A stretch of 35,542 nucleotides of DNA from an uncultured Sphingopyxis sp. GTDB taxonomy: Bacteria; Pseudomonadota; Alphaproteobacteria; Sphingomonadales; Sphingomonadaceae. Position 1 is the stretch's first letter; each line of letters begins with the position of its first letter. The stretch covers positions 1-35,542 of the forward strand of contig CALMYE010000061.1 in the NCBI GenBank assembly GCA_937873425.1, given 5' to 3'. Under the pieces are notes generated by a model. The model was not told the origin of the DNA and ran no database searches. It worked only from the letters and a program-made list of their open reading frames with translations. The position numbers were made by a program, and so were the translations under genes. Positions 4,748-34,689 of the stretch are shown here, piece by piece.

Positions 4748-6595
4748 ATGATGGGCGCTGACCCCGGTTCCGCATATGACGGCGATGCGCTGCGCGCCAA
4801 ATATCTCGCCGAGCGTGACAAGCGCCTGCGCCGCGAGGGCGATGCGCAATATATCGAAGCCAGCGGCGACTTCGCCGGTTTCGTCGCCGATCCCTATGTC
4901 GAGCCGGGCTTCGCGCGCGAAGCGGTGACCGAAGAGGTCGAGGTGCTGATCGTCGGCGGCGGCATGGGTGGCCTGCAGACCGCGGCCGAACTCGTCCGCC
5001 GCGGCATCCAGGATTTTCGCATCGTCGAGCAGGCGGGCGACTTCGGCGGCACCTGGTACTGGAATCGCTACCCCGGCGTGCGCTGCGATATCGAGGCCTA
5101 TATCTACATGCCGTTCCTCGAAGAGGTCCCCTCGGTGCCGAGCGAGCGCTATGCGACCGGCGCCGAGATTTTCGCGCATTGCCAGGCGATCGGCCGTCAC
5201 TTCGGCCTTTACGAGAAGAGCCTGTTCCAGACGCGCGTCGAGCGCATGACGTGGGACGGCGACGCCGCGCGCTGGCTGGTCGAGACCGATCGCGGCGACC
5301 GCATCGCGGCGCGCTTCGTCACCGTCAGCCAGGGGCCGCTCGCCAAGGTCAAGCTGCCCGGCATCCCCGGCATCCGCGATTTCAAGGGCCGGATGTTCCA
5401 CTCGGCGCGCTGGGACTATGCCTATACGGGCGGCGATGCCGGCGGCGGACTCGACAAGCTCGCCGACAAGCGCGTGGGGGTGATCGGGACCGGCGCGACC
5501 GCGGTCCAGATCGTCCCCCGCGTCGCCGAGCATGCGAAGCGGCTCTTCGTCTTCCAGCGCACGCCGTCGTCGATCGACATTCGCGCGAACAGCCCGACCG
5601 ATGTGGCCTGGCTGCACGGGCAGGGCGCGGGATGGCAGCGCCGCCGGATGGACAATTTCCTGGGCATCATCTCGGGCAAGCCCGTCCCCGAAATATTGGT
5701 CGACGATCATTGGGGCGACCTGTTCCTTCGCATGGGCGAATTGATGCATCAGGCGCATGCGGCCGGCGAGACGCCCGACCCGCACGCGGCGATGCAGCGG
5801 TCGGATTATGAGAAGATGGAGGCGATCCGCGCGCGCGTCGCCGAGCAGGTCGACGACCCCGATCTCGCCGAGCGGCTGAAGCCCTGGTATAATTTTCTCT
5901 GCAAGCGGCCGCTGTTCAGCGACGAGTTCCTCCCGGCGTTCAACCGGCCGAACGTCACGCTGGTCGATACCGACGGCCGCGGCGTCGAGCGCATCACCGA
6001 AACAGGGATCGTCGCGAACGGCGAGGAATATCCGCTCGACCTGATCATCCTCGCCACCGGCTTCGACGTCGGCGCGCCCCCGCACAAGGTCGGCGGCTAC
6101 GAAGTCGTCGGCCGCGATGGGCGGACGCTCGCCGAGCGCTGGGACGGCGGTCTGCGGACGCTGCACGGCACGCAGCTCAGCGGCTTTCCCAACTTCCATA
6201 TCGTCGGCGGCACCCAGCAGGGCACCACGGCCTTCAATTTCACCCATGTGCTGCGCATGCAGGCCGAGCATGCCGCCGAGATCATCGCGCATTGCCGGGC
6301 CGGGGGAAGGACGGCGCTCGAACCGGCGCCGGAGGCCGAGGAGCGCTGGCACGAACTGCTCGAGGCCAAGCATGTCGACCATGAGCATTTCTATGAGGAA
6401 TGCACCCCGGGCTTCCTCAACAATGAGGGCAAGTTCCGCGACATGCCGACCTTCGTCGGCGCGACCTATGGCGGCGGGCCGCTCGAATATGAGCAGCTGC
6501 TGACGGCGTGGCGCGCCGGGGACATGCATCGCGATCTGGTCGCGCCGCCCGGCGCTGCCCGAAACGACGCTGAGCCCCGCCGCGCCGCGGGATAA
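4748..6595 (+). CDS. Flavin-dependent Baeyer-Villiger monooxygenase (class B)
   Basis: This 615-residue protein would insert oxygen beside a ketone carbonyl, giving an ester or lactone at the cost of NADPH and O2. The FAD Rossmann motif GGGMGG is at 70-75, followed by FGGTWYWNRYPGVRCD, the typical BVMO FAD contact. The BVMO fingerprint FxGxxxHxxxWD is seen as FKGRMFHSARWD at 212-223. The NADPH motif GTGATA lies near 246-251 and is followed by FQRTPSS. Residues 1-60 extend ahead of the FAD domain, as in larger BVMOs such as phenylacetone or hydroxyacetophenone types. ATG 4748 and ATG 4751 both follow AAGGAG, so the start may be one codon later. It faces away from the ring-cleavage unit and is followed by a TonB receptor. 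Substrate is unknown; an aryl or benzocyclic ketone fits the neighbours. Confidence 0.93.
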   Translation: MMGADPGSAYDGDALRAKYLAERDKRLRREGDAQYIEASGDFAGFVADPYVEPGFAREAVTEEVEVLIVGGGMGGLQTAAELVRRGIQDFRIVEQAGDFGGTWYWNRYPGVRCDIEAYIYMPFLEEVPSVPSERYATGAEIFAHCQAIGRHFGLYEKSLFQTRVERMTWDGDAARWLVETDRGDRIAARFVTVSQGPLAKVKLPGIPGIRDFKGRMFHSARWDYAYTGGDAGGGLDKLADKRVGVIGTGATAVQIVPRVAEHAKRLFVFQRTPSSIDIRANSPTDVAWLHGQGAGWQRRRMDNFLGIISGKPVPEILVDDHWGDLFLRMGELMHQAHAAGETPDPHAAMQRSDYEKMEAIRARVAEQVDDPDLAERLKPWYNFLCKRPLFSDEFLPAFNRPNVTLVDTDGRGVERITETGIVANGEEYPLDLIILATGFDVGAPPHKVGGYEVVGRDGRTLAERWDGGLRTLHGTQLSGFPNFHIVGGTQQGTTAFNFTHVLRMQAEHAAEIIAHCRAGGRTALEPAPEAEERWHELLEAKHVDHEHFYEECTPGFLNNEGKFRDMPTFVGATYGGGPLEYEQLLTAWRAGDMHRDLVAPPGAARNDAEPRRAAG

Positions 6596-27783: not shown

Positions 27784-27800
27784 GGTCGGCGGGGGAAAGA

Positions 27801-27946
27801 GGTTCACGCGGAGACGCGGAGGCGCGGAGAGAAGAGGGAAAGAGGGATTCGCGCAGAGGCGCAGAGATCGCAGAGGAAGAGAGAATGAAGGCGGCGAAGC
27901 CGCCATTCTCTTTTCTTCTCCGCGCCTCCGCGTCTCCGCGTGAACC
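27801..27946. mobile_element. MITE-like element with perfect 29-base inverted repeats
   Basis: Positions 27801-27829 and 27918-27946 are exact inverted copies, beginning GGTTCACGCGGAGACGCGGA. They match the ends of the GxxExxY element at 33476-33923 in the first 20 or more bases. The 88 bases between hold no gene. It lies between the rpsF promoter and the MurC-like gene. A second inverted-repeat pair of related sequence is interleaved with it (27847-27865 and 27962-27980). Confidence 0.75.
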
Positions 27947-27980
27947 CAATTCTCTGTGGCTTCTGCGCCTCTGCGCGAAT
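27847..27980. repeat. Second inverted-repeat pair interleaved with the MITE-like element
   Basis: ATTCGCGCAGAGGCGCAGA at 27847-27865 has an exact inverted copy at 27962-27980. Left arm lies inside the 27801-27946 element and right arm outside it, giving the order A, B, A', B'. The two repeat families share the pattern TTCxCGCxGAGxCGCxGAG. The right arm ends four bases before the MurC-like stop codon. Confidence 0.75.
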
Positions 27981-27983
27981 TCG

Positions 27984-29363
27984 TTAGCCGAGCTTCCCCA
28001 GCAGTTCCCGTCCGAAATCGGTCAGCGTATCGTCGCGCGCGCCGAGGATGAGGATGCGGTCGCCGGGTTTTGCGTCCGTCAGTATCGCCGCGCCGCATTC
28101 GTTGCGGGTCGGGAGATGCACCGCATCACCACCGCCCGCGACGATATCGGCGACGAGCGTGTCGCTCCCCACGCTGCGATCGACGGTGCCGCCGAAATAG
28201 ACCGGATCGCAGACGAACAGCCGGTCGCGGCCCCGCATCCCTTTCGCGAAGCTCGCGGCCAGTTCCTTGCCCATCTGGTGCAGCGGGCCATAGCCGTGCG
28301 GCTGGAAGAAGAGCAGGGCGCGGCCCGGCAGTTCGGCGACCGCCGCCAGCGTCGCCGCGACCTTGTCGGGATTGTGCGCGAAATCGTCGATGACGGTGAC
28401 GCCGCCCGCCTGTCCCAGCACTTCGTAGCGGCGCGCGAGCCCCGCGAAATCGGCGAGCGCCGCCGCTGAATCCGCGACCGATATGTTGACCGCGCGCGCG
28501 GCGGCGATGGCGGCCAGCGCGTTCATCGCATTGTGGCGACCCGGCATGCGCAGCCGCACCTCGGTCGTCGTGGCCGCGAAATGCGCAAGGAAACGGCATC
28601 CGTCGGCGAGCGCCTCGAAATCGCTGCCGCGCATCGCGGCGGCACCCGAAAAACCGAAGCGGATGACATTGCCGCCCGCCAGCAGCGGCGTGGATTCGGG
28701 ATCGTCGGCATTGACCACCGCCACCCGAGCCTTGGCCGCGAAATCGCCGAACAATTGGTGCAGTTCGTCGAGGCTCTTGTGGTCGAGGCTGATATTGGTG
28801 ACTACCGCCACATCGGGCCGGTAGAGCGCGATCGACGCGTCGCTTTCGTCGACCTCGCTGACATAGGTCGCCGCATCGCCGACCAGCGCGCTGGCGAAGG
28901 GGGCATCTTCATTCGCGAAGTTGCGCATCACCGCGCCGTTCATCACGGTGGGCTTGCGTCCCGCGCGCTCCAATATCCAGCCGACCATGCCGGTCACCGT
29001 CGACTTGCCGCTCGTCCCGCCGACGCCGATCGCCTGTGCCGCATCGTTGAACAGAGCGGCGTTGAGGTCGGCGCGCGTCATGCGGGGGAGTTCGAGCGCA
29101 TTCGCCGCCGCGACGTCGGGCACGCTGTCCTCGACCGCCGCCGAGGCGACGAGGGTCTGCCCCGCCGCGACACCGCTGCCGTCCTGCGGGAACAGTGCGA
29201 TGCCTTGGGCTTCGATCCAGCCGAACTTGTCCGCCGAGCGCCCCTGATCGCGGCTGCGGTCCGACCCCGCGACCCGCGCGCCGCGCGCCGCGACGATCAT
29301 CGCCAGCGGCAGCATCCCCGACCCGCCGATGCCGCAGAAGAAATAGGATTTGTTTTCCGACAT
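27984..29363 (-). CDS. Mur ligase family protein, MurC/Mpl-like
   Basis: This 459-residue ATP-dependent ligase resembles MurC, which joins L-alanine to UDP-MurNAc, and Mpl, which recycles murein tripeptide. It has the N-terminal [13 protein letters not shown] nucleotide-binding loop, the ATP P-loop [13 protein letters not shown] near 113-125, [22 protein letters not shown], and the [16 protein letters not shown] and [10 protein letters not shown] stretches of the family. MurC usually reads GTHGKT where this has GTSGKS. It stands alone rather than in a division/cell-wall cluster, so it is more likely a paralogue or recycling ligase than the essential MurC. An LD-carboxypeptidase gene, also tied to murein recycling, lies just beyond and divergent. 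Confidence 0.85.
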
Positions 29364-31399: not shown

Positions 31400-31519
31400 G
31401 CCACGACCGGCCATCCGGCCCTTTCATTCCCTTTGTCATTGCGAGCGTCTACAATCCGCTTTTCTCTATCAAGGTAATAAAGTATCATGCCCTCTCGGTT
31501 CGAGCCAAGGGAGAGGGCG

Positions 31520-33469
31520 ATGAACGGTTTCACGCGCATTTGGGCTTTCGGGCAATGGCTGTTCGTCGCGGCGCTGCTCGCTTCGCCGCTCTGGGCGGAC
31601 GCGACTTCAGGCGTCGTGCGGCAGATAGCCGCAGCCACGGGTTCGGGATCGCACATGCGGGCCTTCGCCGGCGAGGCGGAACTGAAAGCCTTTCTCGCCC
31701 GGCGCGCCAAGGCCGCGTCGGACGTGCAATATATGAGCGTGTCGGAATCCGCGGACGCCGCCGCCGTATCCGAGGTTGCGGCCGATGCGGCCGCCGCTCC
31801 GGCCGAACCCCCGCCGTCCTCCGCCGACGGCGAGGGCATCACCAACGTCCAGACCGCCGGGGTCGACGAAGGCGGGATCGTCAAGCGGCAGGGCGACCTG
31901 CTCATCGTGCTGCGCCGTGGGCGGCTGTTCACCATCGACACGTCGGGCGGCGGCATGCGTGCCGTGGCGGCGGTCGATGTCTTTCCCGGCAAGAGCGAGC
32001 CCGACGGCACCTGGTATGACGAGATGCTCGTCAACGGCGAGACGGTGGTCGTGCTCGGCTACAGCTATGCGCGCAGCGGGACCGAGGTGAACCGTTTCCA
32101 CCTTTCGGGCGACGGCAGGCTCGAATGGCGCGACACCCATTATCTGCGCTCGGGCGACTATTATTCGTCGCGCAACTACGCCTCGCGGCTGATCGGCGAC
32201 AAGCTGATCTTCTATGCGCCGCTGTGGTTCGATGCCGACTGGCAGGACAGCCTTCCCGCGCTCGCGGCGTGGGAGGAAGGCAAGGTCGGCCGCTTCAAGC
32301 CCTTCGCGACCGCGCGGCAAGTCTACATGCCCGACCCCGCGTGGCGCGACGACAGGCTGGCAGGCGATTTGCTCCATAGCGTGATGATCTGCGACCTCGG
32401 CGACCGCGACATGGACTGCGACGCGACCAATGTGCTCGGCGGTTGGTCGCGCAGCTTCTATGTCTCGCAAGGCGCGGTCTATGTCTGGGCCGACCTGGGT
32501 TCTCTTTGGCACGGGAACGCCGAGGACAATCGCGCGATGCTCTATCGCATCCCGCTCGATGGCGGCGCGCCGCAGGCGGTCGAGGTCGCCGGAATGCCGC
32601 TCGACCAATTCTCCTTCCGCGAAGAGGGCGACGGGTCGCTCCACGTCCTGACCCAGGCGGAGGGCGGCGGCGATGCGATGTGGCAGGCCGAGGCGAACGA
32701 CAAGGGCGACATGGCGCTGCTCCACCTCGCCGCGAGCCGCTTCGGTGACGGCGGCGCCAAGGTGACGCCCGCCGATTTCCGCACGCTTCCCGGTGTCGAG
32801 GGCTGGGAACGGCAGAACCGCTTCGTCGGCGACTGGCTCCTCTATGCGGGCGGCCGCGTCGCGCGCGACCTGCGCAAGCCGGACGACGGGGAAAAGGCGG
32901 CGCTCTATGCGGTGCCCCTGAAGGGCGGAGATGTGGTTCCGCTCGACCCCGGTCACGACGTCGGCCGCATCGACATCATGGGCCGCGACGCGATCGTCGT
33001 CGGGACGGGCGGTGGCGCGCTGGTCTTCACCACCGTCGCGCTCGACGGCCGGCCCGCGCTCGCGAGCCGCTACCGCTTTCCCGCCGCGGCGGAGGGAGAG
33101 AATCGCAGCCACGCCTTCTTCTATCGCCCCGACCCCGGCGGCAACGGCGACGACGGGCTGCTCGGCCTGCCGGTGATGCGCCGCGGCGATGGCGGCACCC
33201 GCTTCCTCGGCAGCGCCGCGTCGATCCTCTACCTGCGCCGCGCGCAGCGCGATCTGTCGCTCGCCGGCACGCTCGACGCGCGGCCGGGGCAGCGCGACGA
33301 CCATTGCCTTGCCTCCTGCATCGACTGGTACGGCAACGCCCGGCCGGTGTTTTTTGACGGTCGCATCTTCGCCCTGATGGGCTATGAGCTTGTCGAGGGT
33401 CGCTGGCAGGACGGAGCCGTGCGCGAAAAGGCGCGCATCGACTTCACCCCGCGCCGCAGCGGTCGCTAA
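31520..33469 (+). CDS. Secreted beta-propeller domain protein
   Basis: This 649-residue exported protein has a signal peptide, FGQWLFVAALLASPLWADA. After a linker rich in Ala and Pro comes TNVQTAGVDEGGIVKRQGDLL, close to the opening mark of the beta-propeller domain family (cf. PF09826). Repeated strands follow, including YDEMLVNGETVVVLGYSY and RNYASRLIGDKLIFYAPLW. Its function is unknown; family members are predicted extracytoplasmic proteins. ATG 31520 was chosen for GGGAGAGG upstream; the frame is open 11 codons earlier. It is inserted between fabD and fabG and has no visible link to fatty acid synthesis. Cysteines in MICDLGDRDMDCD and HCLASCIDW may form disulfides. Confidence 0.85.
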   Translation: MNGFTRIWAFGQWLFVAALLASPLWADATSGVVRQIAAATGSGSHMRAFAGEAELKAFLARRAKAASDVQYMSVSESADAAAVSEVAADAAAAPAEPPPSSADGEGITNVQTAGVDEGGIVKRQGDLLIVLRRGRLFTIDTSGGGMRAVAAVDVFPGKSEPDGTWYDEMLVNGETVVVLGYSYARSGTEVNRFHLSGDGRLEWRDTHYLRSGDYYSSRNYASRLIGDKLIFYAPLWFDADWQDSLPALAAWEEGKVGRFKPFATARQVYMPDPAWRDDRLAGDLLHSVMICDLGDRDMDCDATNVLGGWSRSFYVSQGAVYVWADLGSLWHGNAEDNRAMLYRIPLDGGAPQAVEVAGMPLDQFSFREEGDGSLHVLTQAEGGGDAMWQAEANDKGDMALLHLAASRFGDGGAKVTPADFRTLPGVEGWERQNRFVGDWLLYAGGRVARDLRKPDDGEKAALYAVPLKGGDVVPLDPGHDVGRIDIMGRDAIVVGTGGGALVFTTVALDGRPALASRYRFPAAAEGENRSHAFFYRPDPGGNGDDGLLGLPVMRRGDGGTRFLGSAASILYLRRAQRDLSLAGTLDARPGQRDDHCLASCIDWYGNARPVFFDGRIFALMGYELVEGRWQDGAVREKARIDFTPRRSGR

Positions 33470-33475
33470 AATAAT

Positions 33476-33505
33476 GGTTCACGCGGAGACGCGGAGACAC
33501 GGAGG
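33476..33505 (+). repeat. Left inverted repeat of the GxxExxY element
   Basis: Thirty bases beginning GGTTCACGCGGAGACGCGGA. They match the right repeat 33894-33923, read inverted, at 28 of 30 positions. Its GGAGG end is the only ribosome-binding site for the GTG start of the enclosed gene. Confidence 0.85.
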
Positions 33506-33511
33506 GGGCCG

Positions 33512-33928
33512 GTGCGGGACATTGATGTCGTGAGCGGCGACGTGCTGGACCTGTCTCTTCGCATTCATCGCGATTTGGGTCCTGGCCTGCTGGAAAGCGT
33601 CTACGAGACCATATTGGCCAAGAAACTCGTGCATATGGGCTACAAGGTCGATCGGCAGAAGCCGATCGACATCATATTCGAGGATATGCGTTTCGATGCC
33701 GCATTCCGTATCGACCTGCTCGTTGATGGCCGGCTGCTGGTGGAAATCAAATCGGTCGAGCAACTCAACGCCGCGCATGGCAAACAACTCTTGACCTATC
33801 TGCGCCTCACCGCCCAAGCGGTCGGCCTGCTCATCAACTTCGGCGGTGCGACGCTCAAGGAGGGCGTGCGTCGCATCGTCAACGACCATAAACCCTCCGC
33901 GTCTTCGCGTCTCCGCGTGAACCAATAA
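33512..33928 (+). CDS. GxxExxY protein (PD-(D/E)XK nuclease-like)
   Basis: This 138-residue protein belongs to the GxxExxY family, seen in IHRDLGPGLLESVYE where Gly25, Glu28 and Tyr31 make the name motif. The likely nuclease core is Asp68 in RIDLLVD, Glu78-x-Lys80 in VEIKS and Gln92, in the PD-(D/E)XK order. KQLLTYLRL and VGLLINFGG complete the family pattern. Function in the cell is not established. Translation starts at GTG 33512 with a ribosome site inside the left inverted repeat. The last ten residues, PSASSRLRVN, are encoded by the right inverted repeat, so gene and repeats form one unit. Base composition resembles the host. Confidence 0.9.
   Translation: MRDIDVVSGDVLDLSLRIHRDLGPGLLESVYETILAKKLVHMGYKVDRQKPIDIIFEDMRFDAAFRIDLLVDGRLLVEIKSVEQLNAAHGKQLLTYLRLTAQAVGLLINFGGATLKEGVRRIVNDHKPSASSRLRVNQ
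33894..33923 (-). repeat. Right inverted repeat of the GxxExxY element
   Basis: On the minus strand it begins GGTTCACGCGGAGACGCGAA and pairs with 33476-33505 with two mismatches in 30. It overlaps the 3' end of the enclosed gene, whose stop TAA lies just outside at 33926-33928. Confidence 0.85.
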
Positions 33929-33942
33929 AGGAACAATATCCG

Positions 33943-34689
33943 ATGTTCGACCTGACCGGCATGACCGCACTCGTTACCGGCGCCAGCGGGGGGATTGGCT
34001 CGGCCATTGCGCAGGCGCTGGCGGCGCAGGGGGCGCGGCTTGCGGTTTCGGGGTCCAATGCCGGCAAGCTGGACGCCTTTCTGGCGACGCTCGGCGGCGA
34101 GGGGCATGTCGCGCTGCCCTGCGATCTCGGCGACGCGGCGGCGGTCGATGCGCTCGTCCCCTCGGCGGTCGAGGCGCTGGGCGGCAAGCTCGACATCCTC
34201 GTCAACAATGCCGGCGTCACCCGCGACAATCTGATCCTGCGGATGAAGGACGAGGAATGGTCCGACGTCATCCGCATCAACCTCGAAGCCAATTTCCGCC
34301 TCGCGCGCGCCGCCGCCAGGCCGATGATGAAGGCGCGCTTCGGCCGCATCATCTCGATCACCAGCGTCGTCGGCGCGACGGGCAATCCGGGGCAGGCTAA
34401 CTACGCCGCGTCGAAGGCGGGCGTCACCGGCATGACCAAGGCGCTGGCGCAGGAACTCGCCAGCCGCGGCGTCACCGTCAACTGCGTCGCGCCGGGCTTC
34501 ATCGCCACCGCGATGACCGCCGACCTGCCCGACGCGCAGAAGGAGGCGCTGAACCAGCGCATTCCCGCGGGCCGCATGGGCGAGGGCAGCGACATCGCCG
34601 CCGCCGTCGTCTATCTCGCGTCGAAGGAAGCGGGCTATGTGACGGGCCAGACGCTGCATGTGAACGGCGGTATGGCGATGCTGTCCTGA
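33943..34689 (+). CDS. fabG: 3-oxoacyl-[acyl-carrier-protein] reductase
   Basis: This 248-residue SDR enzyme reduces 3-oxoacyl-ACP with NADPH in fatty acid elongation. It has the cofactor loop TGASGGIG at 12-19, NNAG at 88-91, and the catalytic Ser141, Tyr154 and Lys158 (QANYAASKAG). The C-terminal GQTLHVNGGMAML is the FabG end. ATG 33943 follows AAGGAAC, 15 bases after the GxxExxY stop, so its promoter or leader was probably altered by that insertion. acpP, often next to fabG, does not follow here. Confidence 0.95.
   Translation: MFDLTGMTALVTGASGGIGSAIAQALAAQGARLAVSGSNAGKLDAFLATLGGEGHVALPCDLGDAAAVDALVPSAVEALGGKLDILVNNAGVTRDNLILRMKDEEWSDVIRINLEANFRLARAAARPMMKARFGRIISITSVVGATGNPGQANYAASKAGVTGMTKALAQELASRGVTVNCVAPGFIATAMTADLPDAQKEALNQRIPAGRMGEGSDIAAAVVYLASKEAGYVTGQTLHVNGGMAMLS

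Follow-up and report, generated by a model that had tools for sequence, protein, structure and literature searches.

GxxExxY genes of the PD-(D/E)XK superfamily, their bracketing inverted arms and dispersed gene-less arm pairs: a probable parallel to RAYT-REPIN systems

The closest described systems are those of the RAYT/TnpA-REP proteins and their repeats. As set out in parts of PMC3116915 and PMC8266576, RAYT genes are present as single, distinctive copies with no sign of gene mobility, repeats are located beside the gene, and further repeats are dispersed as inverted pairs. The presence of the gene and the abundance of the repeats are correlated, and the repeats are matched to the protein group (same sections of PMC3116915 and PMC8266576). 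REPs are most often preceded by the tetranucleotide GTAG (PMC8266576). A name of the GxxExxY family occurs in three papers of the open-access literature searched; one of them, PMC8934634, names the domain beside a reverse transcriptase, in a passage that contains no mention of repeats. No description of a link between GxxExxY and a repeat was found in the open-access literature; a search of the same literature with six arm strings of period 8 (the repeat type described below) gave no paper, and in a separate search one string was found in a fish eDNA paper, which was taken as unrelated.

The window analysed here is a stretch of 35,542 nucleotides from the genome of an uncultured Sphingopyxis sp., a 4.34-Mb draft in 337 contigs, in which the GxxExxY gene occurs twice, with 59% identity between the matched parts of the two copies. 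A locus of a genome from the same genus (L024) and one of a named Sphingopyxis MAG (L111) have identical protein cores. The gene in the window is bracketed by a pair of inverted 35-nt arms (Table 1), with a complementarity of 91% and a core alignment of 30/32 (locus L032). The first-pass annotation had described gene and repeats as one compact unit, and the bracketing is well beyond chance: the inverted-repeat score of the window copy is 26, whereas 90 displaced flank pairs from 30 loci of the genus score 13 or less. The left arm ends with GGAGGG, shortly upstream of the GTG codon, and could plausibly supply the ribosome site of the gene, as had been suggested. The protein ends in PSASSRLRVNQ, and these 11 residues and the stop codon are encoded by the right arm, which also agrees with the earlier description. 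At 27800–27990 of the window, arms of the GGAG type and of the CGCAGAG type are interleaved, not nested.

Table 1. Features of the window (positions are those of the whole stretch).
Feature	Position	Strand	Remarks
GxxExxY protein gene (TIGR04256 / PF13366 PDDEXK_3)	33512..33928	+	GTG start, 138 aa
Left arm	33472..33506	+	TTC, then tandem 8-nt units ACGCGGAG ACGCGGAG ACACGGAG; GGAG is ribosome-site-like
Right arm	33893..33927	-	left arm inverted; codes for the C-terminal 11 residues of the window copy
Gene-less short element	27800..27947	.	ends as in the gene-bearing unit; interleaved with CGCAGAG-type arms; long hairpin (z -12.25)
Neighbour, fabG-like 3-oxoacyl-ACP reductase	33943..34689	+	context, outside the element
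Neighbour, beta-propeller protein (PF09826)	31487..33469	+	context; immediately upstream of the element in the window genome

The window protein matches the TIGR04256 GxxExxY profile with 120.8 bits (the cut-off is 35; E 3.8e-35) and the PF13366 PDDEXK_3 profile above its cut-off (E 9.6e-35), in accordance with the PD-(D/E)XK-like family named by the first-pass annotation. In an alignment of 71 sequences, residues G25, E28 and Y31 of the GxxExxY motif are invariant, and so are D68, E78 and K80 of the PD-(D/E)XK site. Together with the family profile, this site points to membership of the PD-(D/E)XK superfamily, with nuclease activity predicted from the sequence. The structure of the protein was predicted with a pLDDT of 92.7. 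The fold matches of this model in the PDB are weak (tRNA-splicing endonuclease, SSO0001, which we take to be Cas4-like, lambda exonuclease and MGME1), and none has an E value of 0.001 or lower. Similar predicted viral structures include named PD-(D/E)XK nucleases. The sequence search against solved structures gave a single match, which is not significant (E 0.63), the matches in the defence library are weak (Cas4-type and similar), and those in PHROGs are also weak. Relatives are found in 8 plasmid records and at 3 loci of viral contigs, and no phage relative is observed at E 1e-5.

The arms of other GxxExxY copies were scored as the best ungapped inverted repeat across the gene, and in the Pseudomonadota and cross-phylum sets a score of at least 14 was counted as having arms. 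All 42 copies fetched from the genus are armed, with scores of 16–31 for the first 30 loci (30 of the 31 genus matches, as one match place had no locus) and 19–34 for the 12 further copies. In a draw of 299 Pseudomonadota genomes the family is present in 58, in 57 of them above the cut-off, and 33 of 51 matches, from 50 loci taken from this draw, score 14 or more. The cross-phylum set comprises 80 loci of named genomes and 3 loci of viral contigs, and 58 of its 83 copies reach the same score. Of 1626 control stretches, each placed around another ORF of these loci, 7 reach 14 (top score 31), as do ~11% of between-locus pairings. The 80 loci are the best 80 of at least 579 and cover many phyla; being closest to the query, they do not represent the GxxExxY family at random. 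The first-pass annotation had asked how often such genes elsewhere are bounded by repeats, and in all three sets this is so more often than not. Clear arms are absent from 41 of 173 GxxExxY copies, which have a low repeat score, and one more copy is a partial domain match. The earlier remark that the gene exactly fills the space between the repeats does not hold as a rule, since among the 131 clear-armed copies the stop codon precedes the right arm in 80, falls within the arm or at its outer edge in 14, and lies past it in 37. A TGA interrupts the GxxExxY copy at locus L011 of genome G003, and this genome shows no three-unit arms.

The arms consist of tandem 7-mers like CRCRRAG and near variants, the commonest being CGCGGAG, CGCAGAG, CGCAAAG, CACGAAG, CGCGAAG and CACAAAG. 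The spacing of the units is mostly 8, also 9, 10 and 11. The motif was chosen by us and limits what counts as an arm. Three-unit arms are present within 250 bp of the gene at 61 of the 80 cross-phylum loci (119 arms, against 2 with the reversed motif), and elsewhere in these loci 59 such arms are found in 639 kb, at 19 of the 80 loci, against 0 for the control. The left and the right arm of one copy agree with a mean match of 0.97 over the best 15-nt window, in copies that had been selected for having a repeat. The arm variant differs from copy to copy, while left and right arm vary together. Arm similarity is 0.998 at a protein identity of 90–100% and falls to 0.56 below 30%, which compares with 0.57 for shuffled arms. 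The correlation of arm similarity with protein identity (Spearman 0.51; Mantel 0/500) was calculated for 131 of the 173 copies, after the 41 copies of low repeat score and the partial one had been dropped. In the protein tree, the arm type changes along with the protein clades. Relatedness alone would yield some of this covariation, which by itself is no proof of recognition.

Arms are also present in large numbers away from the gene. When as many as 3 mismatches are allowed, the arm pattern has 171 matches in the window genome, compared with 7 for the reversed control, and many of the 171 form in-facing pairs without a gene. Three gene-less elements were folded as hairpins, with z values of -12.25 (27800–27947), -8.25 and -3.65 (the last element trimmed to 150 bases). 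Gene-less arm pairs in the two genomes measured are mostly 121–217 bp long. In genomes G366 and G032, 45 neighbouring in-facing arm pairs spanning less than 5 kb occur among the matches listed (G032 has 127 arm matches in all, and its pair spans are from those listed); 41 of them span 58–258 bp, three exceed 1.7 kb, and the remaining pair, with a span of 449 bp, corresponds to a GxxExxY copy. Back-to-back pairs of the same two genomes, again among the matches listed, have spans of 64–69 bp in 13 cases, 103 bp in one, and more than 1.1 kb in four. The three longer spans between arms in G032 have 18 listed ORFs, of which 10 were compared with profiles. Three of the 10 match a tRNA synthetase, the phage-integrase family and a dienelactone hydrolase, respectively, and the other seven have no match; none of these ten matches an IS transposase.

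The back-to-back arms at loci L237, L245, L249, L253 and L258 (about 1450–1570) are compact hairpins with a span of 64–69 bp, and several hairpins of this kind are nested within CCCGC..GCGGG-type palindromes, which belong to another repeat family. Closely spaced clusters of arms are seen in contig C296 of G392 (about 5021–6178) and in contig C25 of G388 (about 42471–47538), in the genomes of a Roseiflexus and a Flavobacterium locus.

At orthologous intergenic sites the short elements differ between species, with an apparently empty site in G365. The same sites are occupied by other palindromes, also ones without GxxExxY arms, and the arms wrap differing cores. Because of these other palindromes, the sites are only partly interpretable. 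One orthologous site (L236, L267, L268, L269 and L270) has similar inner palindromes of the CGTTCG..CTTGTCGAAG type, wrapped by GxxExxY-type arms that differ between species, which looks like a joint exchange of both arms. Target-site duplications were sought at 47 short elements, and no consistent length or offset, as would be required for a MITE or IS, was found among them. The excesses are small: at offset 0, for example, a 2-nt match was seen 2 times where 0.1 would be expected, and the direct 6-mers shared within 15 nt numbered 2, against an expectation of 0.35.

The abundance of arms is associated with the presence of the gene. At least four period-8 arms are present in 26 of 30 genus carriers and in 6 of 30 non-carriers (p 3e-7), and 25 of the 30 carriers still have at least four after two arms per gene copy are deducted. 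The 299 Pseudomonadota genomes comprise 34 with both gene and arms, 23 with the gene only, 18 with arms only and 224 with neither (p 6e-17), a count that uses 57 of the 58 family-bearing genomes, leaving out G060 with its match below the cut-off. Outside family f35 the corresponding numbers are 6, 6, 4 and 209. Within f35, gene and period-8 arms are uncorrelated (28, 17, 14 and 15; p 0.34), and many arms of this family have a period of 9–11, which is invisible to the period-8 pattern. The gene was also predicted from the arms of 24 new genomes, with the calls fixed in advance. The gene was found in ten of the 12 genomes predicted to carry it, all 8 predicted non-carriers (5 firm calls and 3 graded 'mostly') are without it, and it is present in 2 of the 4 genomes that had been left open beforehand.

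Among 23 cross-phylum genomes, picked by us from the 80 loci closest to the query, 19 have at least one arm match and 4 have none. The six top genomes reach counts of 107, 69, 34, 28, 19 and 17, with controls of 2, 0, 0, 0, 1 and 0, respectively. Three genomes are not clearly above the control (8 vs 5, 5 vs 3 and 7 vs 11), and in several of the 23 the counts are no higher than the arms of the gene itself could supply. Some arm-bearing genomes have no GxxExxY match, among them G373 (22 matches on one contig) and G215 (111 matches), and the arms of these two are possibly relics after loss of the gene. In G366, the single GxxExxY copy has CGCAGAG arms, and the listed period-8 arms of this genome are of other types; the arms of the copy have 8/9 spacing and are invisible to the period-8 pattern.

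The first-pass annotation had proposed a minimal mobile or selfish repeat, and its fuller form would be an autonomous element of the gene and two arms, with the short pairs as deletion derivatives in the manner of MITEs. Such an element would account for arms that bracket the gene and for gene-less pairs with the same ends, for the several GxxExxY copies per genome of some lineages, and for occupied and empty sites between species. The last point, raised earlier as a check, is seen between fabD and fabG, where 12 of the 30 best-matching genus loci are occupied by the gene, 13 have only 23–26 nt from the fabD-like stop to fabG, and the remaining 5 either have a wider gap or gave no measurable one, so that the site differs between species. 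The history of the gene argues otherwise. The 25 within-genome pairs among the fetched copies have identities of 33–69% and include no near-identical ones, thus no recent copying was caught in this set. In 18 of the 22 sphingomonad-like loci nearest to the window copy (our own pick from the 80 cross-phylum loci) the gene is located 57–88 bp upstream of a fabG-like gene, and the other GxxExxY clades of the genus are found elsewhere. At the fabG locus, eight copies of the GGAG type were compared, and dN/dS ranges from 0.009 to 0.091 (27 of 28 pairs computable), values that are rough because dS is often above 1. With short elements that have no consistent target duplication, the evidence is against the gene itself jumping, and an autonomous element of this kind seems distinctly unlikely. 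What stands of the earlier proposal is a nuclease-like gene linked to a repeat in a unit without a transposase gene, and what lacks support is the gene-plus-arms unit as a selfish mobile element; signs of mobility are seen instead in the short arm pairs that have no gene. A sphingomonad-like GxxExxY gene adjoining a fabG-like gene is also seen in a record named Arthrobacter sp. TPD3018 (L113), which may be mislabelled.

Another enzyme, or recombination or replication slippage, could have spread the arms, the GxxExxY protein being a domesticated nuclease that processes or polices hairpins, or a passenger. This would be compatible with a GxxExxY-arm link known from sequence data, with arms in genomes that have no gene match, with listed arm types that are not always those of the resident gene, and with arms that wrap unrelated palindromes. 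It is less easily reconciled with gene and arms that occur together at loci of many phyla and with an arm variant that tracks the protein lineage, nor is an IS transposase found in the 10 of 18 ORFs scanned from the G032 spans, although one phage-integrase-family match is; we consider it unlikely. The REP-like size, the palindromes and the intergenic location could further suggest REPs mobilised by a RAYT/TnpA-REP (HUH) transposase, and Y1_Tnp (PF01797) is indeed commoner in carriers (9/30, against 2/30 non-carriers, p 0.04), with GxxExxY present in 9 of the 11 Y1_Tnp genomes. These 11 are, however, drawn from 60 genus genomes, there is no Y1_Tnp match in the window genome, which has 89 arm matches, the arms of the window copy are without GTAG, and in the 49 Y1-free genomes the link between gene and arms persists (17/21 carriers vs 5/28 non-carriers, p 1.3e-5). 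On account of the arm-rich window genome and the persisting link, RAYT as the sole driver was rejected, and mobilisation by RAYT is on the whole highly improbable. More improbable still are arms that evolved at the GxxExxY gene as mere expression signals: the GGAG beside the start codon of the window copy and a right arm past the stop in 80 of 131 copies, where it could be a terminator, would fit, but the tens of gene-less arm pairs elsewhere already contradict this reading, and the joint variation of left and right arm and the 7 of 1626 control stretches that reach a score of 14 also speak against it.

Since the pattern matches that of RAYT/TnpA-REP, the enzyme family is unrelated, and the gene-arm link is retained in Y1-free genomes, we propose a REPtron-like system in which a PD-(D/E)XK nuclease replaces the HUH transposase, the gene being resident and the short arm pairs spreading; we regard this as probable. 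The recognition and mobilisation of the arms by the GxxExxY enzyme is, in our judgement, rather likely. In such a system, the GxxExxY genes would be resident enzymes, with one copy per type per genome, and the gene would stay in place through long vertical inheritance (as for the window clade beside fabG in sphingomonads) under purifying selection. The protein would bind its cognate arms, probably as a single-stranded DNA hairpin or a cruciform, and would cut at or near the arm ends. Cutting would spread short arm pairs into intergenic, palindrome-rich sites via host repair or replication, presumably leaving no target duplication. Gene-less arm pairs are dispersed in carriers and in a few non-carriers, which may have lost the gene. 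As a tentative extension, GxxExxY proteins could be the founding members of a new DNA-mobilising class, in which a lone, tiny PD-(D/E)XK nuclease spreads cognate CRCRRAG-like repeat pairs without a transposase, in parallel to and independently of RAYT-REPIN, in many phyla.

With the proposed system, a widespread gene family named solely after its motif acquires a role that can be tested, and a class of short repeats across many bacterial genomes would be explained. Resident nucleases with dispersed palindromes would then be known from two unrelated systems, so that the persistence of RAYT-REPIN-like pairs could be approached through comparison. The matched arm variants and protein clades offer cognate and non-cognate combinations with which specificity could be tested directly.

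In comparison with known systems, the window gene is a clear member of the TIGR04256 / PF13366 family. Its likeness to Cas4 and lambda-exonuclease-like PD-(D/E)XK nucleases consists of weak fold and profile similarity, and it differs from them in the lack of a PDB fold match at E <= 0.001. With MITEs and their autonomous IS it shares short elements that have terminal inverted repeats in common with a gene-bearing unit; it differs in having no transposase, no consistent target duplication and no near-identical gene copies. In contrast to RAYT-REPIN (the REPtron), the GxxExxY protein belongs to PD-(D/E)XK and not to HUH/Y1, the arms are tandem 7-mers of period 8–11, no GTAG is present in the arms of the window copy (the only one scored), and the gene sits inside one inverted arm pair. 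In other respects the likeness to RAYT-REPIN is close: among the copies and genomes fetched there is a single copy per type and no sign of gene mobility, the gene has its own repeats beside it and inverted pairs are dispersed in intergenic DNA, the abundance of gene and repeats is correlated, and the repeats are matched to the protein group.
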